The notes beneath the pieces are model-generated. The model was not told the origin of the DNA and did not search any database. It saw only the letters and a list, made by a program, of their open reading frames with translations. From positions 1 through 32,124 of the forward strand of contig CAMDUT010000010.1 in the NCBI GenBank assembly GCA_945877905.1: 32,124 nucleotides of DNA, in the 5' to 3' direction. The stretch comes from Phycisphaera mikurensis NBRC 102666. Lineage in GTDB: Bacteria > Planctomycetota > Phycisphaerae > Phycisphaerales > SM1A02. Made by a program: the position numbers and the translations under genes. Of the stretch, positions 7,650-17,766 are shown piece after piece (position 1 is the stretch's first letter; every line of letters begins with the position of its first letter).

Positions 7650-9371
7650 TCAGTCCACCTGCTTCGTCGGTGCGGCCATCCGTTCGAGCGCGCGATCCAT
7701 TGCCCGGCGGTAGGTCCACGCCCGCTCGGACGCGTCCTGGTGCTCCGCGCCCTCGTTCAGGGCACGCTCGAGCTCGGCCTTGCCGTCGCTTCCGACCGCA
7801 TCCTCCCCGAGGAGCACCACGGAGGCGATCGCCAGCTCGTACAGCGCGGCGCACGACGCCGCGTCGCCGGCGTTGAACCGCGGGACGCCGCGCTCGATGG
7901 CCAGCTCGAGGATCGAAGCGGCGCGCTGCGCCCGCGCCGGCATGCCGGAGACCGCGGTCGAGGCCTCCCTCGCTGACGCCGCGCTCGGCGCGGGGAGCAC
8001 GCGGTCGATGACGTGGATGAAGCCGTTGGCCGCCTCGATGTCCGCGACCTCGATGCGCGCGCCGGCGGCCGTGATGACGCCCGACTCGAGCGCGAACTTG
8101 ACGGTTCCGTCGCCCATCAGCGTGCGCACCGAGCCTTGCGCGAGCATCTCCTCGCGTCGGATCGCGGTCGGCAGGACGTGCGCGGCCAGCACGGCGGTGA
8201 GCGCGCGCCGGTCCTGCAGCAGTTCCCTCAGCGCGTCGGCCGGGATCGCGCCGAACGCCTCGTTGGACGGCGCGAGCAGGGTCCACGGGCCGGGATTCCG
8301 CGCGCCGAGCTGGGGCCCGAGCCCGGCCGCGTCGATGGCCGCTCGGAGCGTCGTGAACCGGTCGTCCTCGGCGACGATCTGCTCGATGCTCCGGAGTTCC
8401 GGGAGCATGACGGAGTCGATCACGTGCACGATGCCGCCGTCGAAGGCGACGTCCGTGGCGACGAATCGCGCACCGTCGATCGTCGGTCCGTCCGCGTCGA
8501 TCTCGAGCGACTGCCCGGACAGCGCGGCGAGCCGCCGCCGGTCGAGCACGGCCGAGCTGCCCACGGGTTGCGCGACCACGTGGTGCCTCAGGATCGCCTG
8601 CAGCGTCGGCTTGCCGGCGTCGCTCGTCAGGAACTCGACCCGTGCCGCCGGCAGCTTCGCGAAGGCCTCGTTGGTCGGGGCGAAGACGGTGAGCTTCGCG
8701 TCCTTCGGGAACTCGATCCCCGAGGCCTTGACCAGGGCAAGGAGCGTGGTGAGGTTCGCCTTCGTGGCGACGGACGCAAGCGAGCCGGTCGACGACCGCG
8801 TGGCCGCGGCCTGGCCAGTCGGTCGGATCCAGTCGATCTCGATCGCGAACGGACCCTCCTTCTTGTCGGAGAGCGTCACGCCGATCGACTCGACGGAGGC
8901 CGGGTCGAGCGCGGGCGCGTTCCGCACCCGCTGGCCGAAGCTGTTCGCCACGCACTGGTCGAAGGGGATCTCGACCTCGGACCACTCGCCGGCCCGTGTC
9001 TTGAAGGTGCTCTGGTAGCCGCCCGCCATGAGGCGCAGGCGCGACGACCGGATGTCGCACTGGTAGGTGCGGCCGTCGCCCTTCACTCGCATCACGAGGC
9101 CGGTCGCCCCCGCGAAGGTGCCCTCGGGCACCGACGTGCGGATCTGCGAGAAGCCGCCGTTGTTCTCGAGCGAGAGCTCGCCGGAGAACCGCAGCGTGCC
9201 GCCTTCGCCCGCCGCGATCCGTCCGGTCGACAGCCCGCCCATCACGCCGTCGAGGACGGTCTGCCAGCCCGTGGTGCCGCCGTCGAACTCGAGGTTCGAC
9301 TCGGCCGCACAGGGGGCGCACGCGAGGAGGGCGACGAGGCCGAACGGGCGGATCGAGGCATTGATTTGCAT
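7650..9371 (-). CDS. Secreted CIA30-domain plus two fasciclin-domain protein
   Basis: MQINASIRPFGLVALLACAPCAAE leader; LEFDGGTTGWQTVLDGVMGGLSTGR...LSLENNGGFSQIR (CIA30/NDUFAF1-like); two FAS1 modules ('LTVFAPTNEAFAKLP', 'GIVHVIDSVMLP'; 'WTLLAPSNEAFGAIP', 'GFIHVIDRVLP'). Confidence 0.9.
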   Translation of the reverse strand: MQINASIRPFGLVALLACAPCAAESNLEFDGGTTGWQTVLDGVMGGLSTGRIAAGEGGTLRFSGELSLENNGGFSQIRTSVPEGTFAGATGLVMRVKGDGRTYQCDIRSSRLRLMAGGYQSTFKTRAGEWSEVEIPFDQCVANSFGQRVRNAPALDPASVESIGVTLSDKKEGPFAIEIDWIRPTGQAAATRSSTGSLASVATKANLTTLLALVKASGIEFPKDAKLTVFAPTNEAFAKLPAARVEFLTSDAGKPTLQAILRHHVVAQPVGSSAVLDRRRLAALSGQSLEIDADGPTIDGARFVATDVAFDGGIVHVIDSVMLPELRSIEQIVAEDDRFTTLRAAIDAAGLGPQLGARNPGPWTLLAPSNEAFGAIPADALRELLQDRRALTAVLAAHVLPTAIRREEMLAQGSVRTLMGDGTVKFALESGVITAAGARIEVADIEAANGFIHVIDRVLPAPSAASAREASTAVSGMPARAQRAASILELAIERGVPRFNAGDAASCAALYELAIASVVLLGEDAVGSDGKAELERALNEGAEHQDASERAWTYRRAMDRALERMAAPTKQVD

Positions 9372-9609
9372 GGCAACGTGGGTTCGCCCGGCATGCGAGA
9401 CTGGATGCCGAATCCGAGGCGCGTGCTTTGGCTGGACGTTCCTCGCCGCTCCGCCCGGGGCGACGCCGTCGTCCGGCGACCGCGCCTGCATTCGTTCACG
9501 GCCCCGAGCTGCGGTCGCCCCGTCGGGTGCTTCTTGCCTGCACTAGACTCCCGGTCCCTCCGGGCTCCGTTGCCCGGGGGACCCGCTTCGCCTTGCAAGG
9601 AACCTGCAC

Positions 9610-15699: not shown

Positions 15700-15871
15700 A
15701 TCCCGTGCCCTGCCAAACTGGCACCAATGTGAATCCAACGCCGATGAATCAGGGAACCCTACGGTGAACGGCCGAGCAGTTGCCGCACCACACCGGTCCG
15801 TGTGCAGGCCCCTCGGTGGGACCTGGGCAGGGGCCCACGGAGACCCTCTCGTGACGCCAATTCTCGCAGAC
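15700..15871 (+). promoter_or_regulatory. Leader upstream of rhodopsin with possible structured RNA (weak cobalamin-riboswitch-like elements)
   Basis: GATGAATCAGGGAA (15743-15756), CGGTGAA (15762-15768), GCAG..CCGCACC (15776-15789), CACGGAGACC (15836-15845), and a GGCCCCT/AGGGGCC stem (15808-15814 / 15828-15834 approx). Several consensus positions do not match. Confidence 0.2.
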
Positions 15872-16636
15872 ATGTCAACGACCATGCGTGCCCTCAACGC
15901 CGGACTGTCCATGGAGGGGGTCACCATGTACCTCTTCTGGCTGTCGACGGTCGCGATGGGCGCCGGAGCCCTCTACTTCTGGCTGCAGCGCAAGACCGTC
16001 CAGGTCCAGTACCAGACCGCGATGACCGTGGCCGGCATCATCTGCGCGGTCGCCTGCTTCCACTACTGGCGCATGAGCGGCATCTACCTCGAGGGCGTGG
16101 CGAGCCTCTTCAACGCCGACGGCTCGCGCATCGAGGGCGCGGTCATCAAGCAGTTCCCCACCGCGTACCGCTACATCGACTGGCTGATCACGGTGCCCCT
16201 GCTCGTGATGGAATTCCCGTTGCTCCTGAACCTGGGCAAGAAGGGCTCCGAGCTCTTCAAGGGCCTCGTCTTCTGGTCGCTCGTGATGCTCGTCACCGCA
16301 TGGGTGGCCGAGGAGAGCCCGACCGGCAGCCAGCAGTGGTGGACCTGGTACGTCGTGAGCTGCGGCTCGTGGCTGTACATCGTCTACATGCTCTTCACCA
16401 AGGTCACCGAGGCCATGGAGTCCGCCCCGGCGAGCATCCAGGCCAGCCTCAAGGCGATGCGCCTCTTCGTGACGATCGGCTGGGTGATCTACCCCGTCGG
16501 CTTCCTCATGGCGCTCGGCGGGACCAACGGCGAGAGCTGGCGCGAGGTGTGCTACAACGTCGCCGACGTGATCAACAAGGTCTTCTTCGGCCTGGTCTGC
16601 TACCAGGGCGTGAAGGGACTCGGCGAGCGCGCCTGA
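15872..16636 (+). CDS. Proteorhodopsin-type light-driven proton pump
   Basis: Seven-helix pattern; FHYWRMSG (His75-like), RYIDWLITVPLLVMEF (Asp97/Thr101/Glu108-like), GWVIYPVGF, YNVADVINKVFFGL (retinal Lys). Start at ATG 15872; the 15650 ORF start is over-extended. Confidence 0.95.
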   Translation: MSTTMRALNAGLSMEGVTMYLFWLSTVAMGAGALYFWLQRKTVQVQYQTAMTVAGIICAVACFHYWRMSGIYLEGVASLFNADGSRIEGAVIKQFPTAYRYIDWLITVPLLVMEFPLLLNLGKKGSELFKGLVFWSLVMLVTAWVAEESPTGSQQWWTWYVVSCGSWLYIVYMLFTKVTEAMESAPASIQASLKAMRLFVTIGWVIYPVGFLMALGGTNGESWREVCYNVADVINKVFFGLVCYQGVKGLGERA

Positions 16637-16653
16637 TCGCGGACTCCTGAAGC

Positions 16654-17766
16654 TTGAACACCGCCCCGCCCACCGCCGCCGTGCACGAGCACCCCTCACG
16701 GGGGCTCGCGCCGGCGGCGGAGGCGGGGCGGCTCCTTTGCGGTCCGCGCGCCGTTCCGTGGACCATGCTCACGATCGCCGCGGTGCTGGGGGCGGTCGCG
16801 CCCGCCTTCACCGCCGCGGCGGCGCCGTGGCCGTTCGTGGTCGCGCTGCTCGCGTTCGGCATGCCGCACGGCGCCGCCGACTGGGCGGTGGCCGGTCGGC
16901 TCTCGGGCCGCGACGGGTTCCTCCCGCGGCTGCTCGGCTTCGGCGGCTACCTGCTGCTCATGGCGGCGAGCCTTGCGGCCCTTGCGCTGCAGCCGGGCAT
17001 CGCCGCGCTCCTGTTCCTCCTGCTCACGGTGTTCCACTTCGGCATGGCCGACGCGACGGCGGTCGGCGCGGACGACGACGGGCCCGTCGCGCGGTGGGGC
17101 CTCGTCTTCGGGCGCGGGTTGCTCTTGCTCGCGACGGCCTTCGCCGCGCACCCTGCCGAGGCATGGGCGCCGTTCGCGCGGATCGGCGACGCGCTCTCGC
17201 CGTGGGCCGCCGCCGCATGGAGGCCGGACCTCGGGACGCTCCAGCGACTGGCGCTCGTCGGTGCGATCGCGGGCGGCGTCATCGCGTGCGTCGGCGCCGC
17301 CGCGCGCGCCGCGGCCGGGCACGCGCACGCGGCGGCCAAGGACCTCTTCGAACACGCGCTCGTAGTGGCGATGGCCTCGATGGCGGACCCGCTGTTCGCG
17401 GTGGGCTGCTACTTCCTCGGTGTCCATGCGTTCCGCCATTCGCGGCGGCTTGCAAGCACCGGGTGCATCATCGAGGGCGAGGGCGCACGGGCCCGGCCGT
17501 CGCGGACCGCGGGTCCCGCGGAGCCGCTCGGACGCCGCCTGCTCCGCGTCCACGTGCTGAGCCTGCCCCTGATGTGGCCGACCGCCGCGTGCATGGTCGC
17601 CCTGTGCTGGGCGCTCGGAGGCGGCGATCCGCGGACCATCGCCGACGCGAGCATCGCGTTCTACGTGATCACGACGCTTCCGCACCACCTGCTGGGCCTG
17701 CGGCTGCCGCGACCGGACATGTCGCCCGCGGCGACCGGCGCCGAGCGCGCCGCCTTCGGCACGTGA
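16654..17766 (+). CDS. blh: Brp/Blh-type beta-carotene 15,15'-dioxygenase (retinal synthesis)
   Basis: LLAFGMPHGAADWAV, LLTVFHFGMADA, MADPLFAVGCYFLGVHAFRHSRRL, ITTLPHHLLGLRL; 17-bp gap after the rhodopsin stop; TTG start. Confidence 0.92.
   Translation: MNTAPPTAAVHEHPSRGLAPAAEAGRLLCGPRAVPWTMLTIAAVLGAVAPAFTAAAAPWPFVVALLAFGMPHGAADWAVAGRLSGRDGFLPRLLGFGGYLLLMAASLAALALQPGIAALLFLLLTVFHFGMADATAVGADDDGPVARWGLVFGRGLLLLATAFAAHPAEAWAPFARIGDALSPWAAAAWRPDLGTLQRLALVGAIAGGVIACVGAAARAAAGHAHAAAKDLFEHALVVAMASMADPLFAVGCYFLGVHAFRHSRRLASTGCIIEGEGARARPSRTAGPAEPLGRRLLRVHVLSLPLMWPTAACMVALCWALGGGDPRTIADASIAFYVITTLPHHLLGLRLPRPDMSPAATGAERAAFGT

Follow-up and report, generated by a model that had tools for sequence, protein, structure and literature searches.

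A two-gene rhodopsin-blh cassette in a Phycisphaerae genome with no recognisable route to beta-carotene

We analysed a 32,124-nucleotide stretch of DNA, referred to here as the window, which is one whole contig (G000:C10) of a Phycisphaerae genome of 2.47 Mb (201 contigs, 97.6% complete) from an uncultured aquatic planctomycete. The closest named relatives of this genome are planctomycete MAGs, several of which carry lake sample names (i.e., a lake origin is read from their isolate codes). On the forward strand the window contains a rhodopsin gene (15851..16636; 261 aa) with a conserved N-terminus and a clear match to PF01036 (profile search, E 1.2e-41). The first-pass annotation had described a 254-aa rhodopsin beginning at ATG 15872, which lies seven codons inside the frame that we prefer. 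A GGAG, the likely ribosome-binding site, is found at 15839..15842, 8 nt 5' of a GTG at 15851, and is kept in close relatives. Relatives retain this GGAG together with a GTG, ATG, or TTG start seven codons 5' of the position matching ATG 15872, and their proteins carry the corresponding N-terminal extension, e.g., (M/V)TPLLADMSTTM. Because the GGAG, the start codon, and the extra N-terminal residues are all kept, we moved the start to GTG 15851, which is probably the true one, and rhodopsin residues are numbered from it. A promoter scan found no sigma-70-like site and was uninformative.

The residues expected of a type-1 proton pump (an Asp acceptor, Thr, a carboxylic donor, and a nearby His) are complete in the rhodopsin. 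The helix C motif RYIDWLITVPLLVME (16169..16213) supplies acceptor Asp110, Thr114, and donor Glu121, so the D-T-E set named in the first-pass annotation is present, as are its His in FHYW (His71, 16061..16063) and its retinal Lys in NVADVINK (Lys243, 16577..16579). In alignment with GPR and ESR, the rhodopsin of Exiguobacterium sibiricum (PDB 4hyj), His71 occupies the position of GPR His75, with no exceptions among the 12 sequences of the clade alignment, and Lys243 in helix G is the retinal Schiff-base lysine. Leu118, also within the helix C motif, corresponds to the green-tuning position (GPR Leu105). At the carotenoid-fenestration position (xanthorhodopsin Gly156) the alignment places Tyr167 (16349..16351), and across 63 clade loci this position holds Tyr in 57, Phe in 3, and Trp in 1 (2 unread). 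Given Tyr167, a carotenoid antenna is not expected. The structural model (pLDDT 82.7) has a seven-helix fold, and its best PDB match is ESR (E 9e-11, 38% identity, TM 0.75-0.85).

The second gene, blh (16654..17766, forward strand; 370 aa), encodes a Brp/Blh-family protein, predicted to be a beta-carotene 15,15'-dioxygenase, and begins 17 bp after the rhodopsin stop at 16636, as previously noted. Its TTG start lines up with GTG and TTG starts of relatives. In profile searches it scored above the cut-offs of both TIGR03753 (116.6 bits; cut-off 95.25) and PF15461 (E 2.3e-34; 119.7 against a cut-off of 28). Alanine mutants of His21, His78, His188, and His192 in 66A03 Blh, from an uncultured marine bacterium, keep less than 5% activity (PMC9227343). 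The window's Blh has the same order of four catalytic histidines, namely His72 (16867..16869), His128 (17035..17037), and His258 with His262 (17425..17439, spacing 4), at intervals of 56/130/4 compared to 57/110/4 in 66A03 Blh; the two proteins are likened here by family profile and residue pattern rather than by direct alignment. In an alignment of 18 sequences, His72, His128, His258, and a fifth histidine, His344 (17683..17685), are invariant, and His262 is retained in most rows but replaced in two distant ones (L165 and L132). The Blh model has a pLDDT of 85.6, and a PDB fold search with it returned no match (best E 0.66). One relative, G267, carries a second, solitary blh (L133:6572-7654, reverse strand) approximately 62% identical to the window's and far from its own rhodopsin-blh pair.

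The rhodopsin had been called proteorhodopsin-type, with a phylogeny against proteorhodopsin and xanthorhodopsin clades proposed as a check. In our tree, ESR, GPR, and the window's clade split off together at 99% SH-aLRT, apart from xanthorhodopsin, Gloeobacter rhodopsin, and Kin4B8. The label is thus roughly right as to the side of the tree, but the branching order among ESR, GPR, and the window's clade is weakly supported and the reference branches are long. Sequence matches follow the same order (phmmer: ESR 174 bits, GPR 124, xanthorhodopsin 82), and the tree, the scores, and Tyr167 in place of Gly together rule out a xanthorhodopsin assignment. Within its own clade the rhodopsin is 55-96% identical. 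It belongs to a branch already known from Planctomycetes and Verrucomicrobia, neighboring Exiguobacterium rhodopsin and proteorhodopsin, with freshwater members of both groups on record (PMC5673642, PMC6461901). Such a branch near Exiguobacterium was proposed earlier (PMC5673642), and five freshwater planctomycete rhodopsins, one of them in Phycisphaerae, have been reported in a paper whose text mentions neither carotenoid nor retinal (PMC6461901). The members described there (Verrucomicrobiae-Tous-C5FEB and the Phycisphaerae rhodopsin, respectively) resemble the window's clade in hosts, in having Exiguobacterium as nearest neighbor, and in being green variants. The clade is perhaps also the verrucomicrobial clade P4 of PMC10284914.

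ESR is the best match of the window's rhodopsin in both sequence and fold and likewise has Tyr at the fenestration position, but its donor is Lys where the window's rhodopsin has Glu121. Three clade relatives (L162, L188, and L192) have Lys instead of the donor Glu, as in ESR. The Glu/Lys donor swap seems to have occurred within or at the base of the window's clade.

A scan of named genomes yielded 60 loci, almost all of them bearing a Planctomycetota or Verrucomicrobiota label; adding the window, G032, and G258 gives the 63 clade loci. We found that blh adjoins the rhodopsin gene in 59 of these; the remaining four stop at or near a contig edge just behind the rhodopsin, such that blh is next in every locus (59/59) whose contig runs on. 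In the window's clade the cassette is always a two-gene unit, an observation that is new here. Several Verrucomicrobia that appeared to lack blh (L161, L163-166, and L170) do have one, encoding a diverged Blh that a search with a single sequence had overlooked. No other neighbor family is conserved within 6.5 kb of the cassette across clade loci, including any uptake or accessory gene, so that blh is the sole conserved neighbor; what looked like additional families turned out to be shadow frames or more Blh. The genes flanking the window's cassette differ from those flanking its sister's. One of the few hints of shared surroundings is a fasciclin and CIA30 domain protein in the window (7653-9491, reverse strand), which has a 73% identical stretch near the L151 cassette. 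Three marine Phycisphaerae have a crtN-like desaturase in divergent orientation immediately beside the pair (L177:4303-5976, L179:4330-5922, and L182:2176-3879, all reverse strand), and these neighbors possibly link C30 genes to the pump.

Pairs of relatives gave dN of approximately 0.003-0.04 against dS of approximately 0.1-0.6 for the rhodopsin gene, and dN of approximately 0.01-0.3 against dS of approximately 0.04-1.3 for blh. That dN is far below dS in nearly all pairs indicates that both genes are under purifying selection, the rhodopsin being more conserved than blh. The earlier description of a two-gene cassette is thus borne out by families, motifs, and conserved coding in relatives, which, together with the fold, also support a predicted pump and a predicted retinal-forming enzyme in a Phycisphaerae genome. 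Distances for the two genes correlate (Pearson r 0.80; by rank, 0 of 999 permutations reached the observed value), and in the tree verrucomicrobial rows are nested among planctomycete ones at two or more points (L153-155 and L184-190), suggesting that the two genes probably crossed between phyla together. Some of this apparent transfer could be an artefact of MAG mis-binning. One MAG labelled Flavobacteriaceae (L185) has a cassette nearly identical to the verrucomicrobial L184 and is likely mis-binned.

We asked where the substrate of Blh would come from. The first-pass annotation found the window to contain no genes for carotenoid biosynthesis, which is right as far as scanned, and assumed that beta-carotene would be given. 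Our data indicate that this substrate is probably not made by the cell, as the genome has neither a CrtB-type phytoene synthase nor a lycopene cyclase of the two families tested (no PF05834 or TIGR03462 match in profile searches). Absence of beta-carotene synthesis had been named as an outcome that would speak against the cassette reading, and such an absence is what searching the genome for crt genes returned. The genome contains two SQS_PSY genes, an HpnC (C60, above cut-off) and an HpnD-like gene (C41), and phytoene synthase models score far lower on both. HpnD is the best model for the C41 gene at 210 bits, below its cut-off of 279, and an HpnE directly follows it (430 bits, above cut-off). 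Because HpnC and HpnD form a tandem pair in the sister genome G102, the two contig ends probably belong to a single locus that was broken during assembly. Two crtI-family desaturases lie close together on opposite strands of C59 (L010:2921-7713), with a tryptophan dioxygenase, an MsbA-like ABC transporter, and dxs nearby. HpnC, HpnD, and HpnE with the desaturases form a squalene-route set for which the genes alone predict a C30 product, and we take this set to resemble the squalene-to-C30 carotenoid route of Planctomycetes.

We then questioned whether this gene content was homogenous across the clade, keeping in mind that gene absences rest on profile searches of mostly draft MAGs. A rhodopsin above cut-off was found in 23 of the 397 genomes of the class, and 16 of these belong to the window's clade; none of the 16 has a full-length lycopene cyclase. 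In contrast, all six class genomes with xanthorhodopsin-type (G013, G221, G273, and G296) or NDQ sodium-pump-type (G062 and G068) rhodopsins have crtY in the locus. This split would arise by chance once in 74,613 if genomes were independent, but they are related and the value is a guide only. Among 39 further whole clade genomes, only G434 has a full-length lycopene cyclase, which is therefore missing in 54 of 55 whole clade genomes. Weak PF05834 matches in relatives are confined to the N-terminal FAD part, and other FAD families fit them better; the heterodimeric-type cyclase (TIGR03462) was found in none of 24 genomes tested. Among the SQS_PSY copies that were typed, a CrtB-type phytoene synthase occurs only in G434 and the 7-Mb bin G411; the rest are HpnC/HpnD-like or squalene-synthase-like. 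In G032, which is a single contig (99%) without a lycopene cyclase, the sole SQS_PSY fits squalene synthase. Profile searches found no SQS_PSY at all in G306, G397, G421, G422, and G429, which, if the assemblies are complete, means that their Blh cannot rely on home-made carotenoid. These absences could partly be assembly gaps, and G422 and G429 bear single-cell names.

The xanthorhodopsin-type clusters come from the same class, mostly the same order, and also contain blh, but their rhodopsins are only approximately 30-33% identical to the window's and crtI, crtB, and crtY lie in the locus. Similarly, the proteorhodopsin photosystem (PR with crtE-B-I-Y and blh) shares a pump with adjoining blh, whereas the window's locus and genome are without the carotene genes (phytoene synthase and lycopene cyclase). 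According to PMC10284914, the full proteorhodopsin cluster is present in most rhodopsin-bearing Verrucomicrobiota. A putative diapophytoene desaturase has been reported in the host of ESR (PMC2615787).

We consider it fairly probable that the cassette is a minimal photosystem in which a proton pump is combined with a Blh fed by an imported beta-ring carotenoid. The rhodopsin would absorb green light and use it to pump protons out of the cell, with no carotenoid antenna needed. Blh, in the same membrane, would cut the carotenoid at its 15,15' bond, and the resulting retinal would bind Lys243. The carotenoid would come from outside, since the cell has a C30 squalene route and no recognisable C40 route; likeliest is beta-carotene or beta-cryptoxanthin, a substrate that 66A03 Blh also accepts (PMC9227343), from plankton. 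Since C40 genes are missing in almost all clade genomes and blh is kept, an outside carotenoid is favored over a dead cassette. Its source is probably algae or cyanobacteria, whose free carotenoids are plausibly present in lakes. Counting against import, no uptake gene is linked to the cassette. Gene identity, catalytic residues, linkage, purifying selection, and the clade-wide absence of known C40 genes are established by sequence, from which pumping, Blh activity, and carotenoid uptake are predicted.

Neither the rhodopsin clade nor the Blh family is new. We found no prior account of a clade-wide blh-only cassette without a C40 route in the literature covered, although the supplement of PMC10284914, which was outside it, could hold one. 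Discussion of how rhodopsin-bearing bacteria come by their retinal has so far centered on those that lack blh. The present clade, which extends over two phyla, always keeps the gene for the final step next to the pump while the upstream route is missing, which would mean light harvesting that depends on phytoplankton carotenoid, much like vitamin A in animals. Rhodopsin and blh in a genome do not alone prove self-sufficient phototrophy.

Beta-carotene might instead be made at home by unrecognised enzymes (e.g., an HpnD/HpnC able to join GGPP as well, together with a cyclase from some unknown family) and then cut by Blh. Retention of blh in every assessable locus is simplest if substrate is always at hand, the genome has two crtI-family desaturases, distant FAD proteins of some relatives have N-terminal similarity to lycopene cyclase, and Aurantimicrobium minutum forms retinal without known genes (PMC7734400). 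However, the HpnC/HpnD tandem in rhodopsin-free relatives and the HpnE beside HpnD are both as expected for squalene synthesis, the FAD proteins are better explained by general FAD-binding domains, five cassette genomes are without any SQS_PSY, and the genome has zero PF05834 matches. We regard such a hidden route as unlikely. Supply of retinal itself mainly from outside, with Blh left to a secondary role in, e.g., retinal transfer or carotenoid breakdown, has a precedent in Rhodoluna lacicola (as cited in PMC7734400), but Rhodoluna is without blh and here all 59 assessable loci have blh beside the pump, making this improbable.

We give still less weight to a shift in substrate, in which Blh would cut the cell's own C30 carotenoid and yield a chromophore other than retinal, such as a C15 product. 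Most genomes with the cassette also have C30-type genes, and in the three marine relatives a crtN-like gene adjoins it, but G306 and four others carry the cassette without SQS_PSY, all four catalytic histidines are retained, and no substrate reported for 66A03 Blh lacks a beta ring (PMC9227343). The retinal-Lys and helix-C motifs are also conventional, and it is very improbable that Blh cuts a C30 or other non-beta-carotene substrate and that the rhodopsin uses a chromophore other than ordinary retinal. Patchiness within the family and unconserved surroundings might suggest a laterally spread relic without present function. This is the hardest of these readings to credit: the frames are intact throughout, dN is well under dS in almost every pair for the rhodopsin gene and blh alike, and the ribosome-binding site and start are conserved.

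We also considered the RPE65 family as an alternative cleavage enzyme. A profile search found none in the window's genome, and the family is absent in 48 of 49 genomes, including all clade genomes tested. The sole member (G068:C40:13194-14603, L243) belongs to G068, which lies outside the clade and has a sodium-pump-type rhodopsin, blh, and crtY. Another genome of the class, G149 (99% complete), has blh without a lycopene cyclase and two odd rhodopsins: one (L125:7157-8116, reverse strand) has the helix-C set N-D-S (RYMNWMIDVPNLLLS) and an adjoining blh, and the other (L126:5537-7927, forward strand) has N-T-T (RYVNWAITVPLLLMT).
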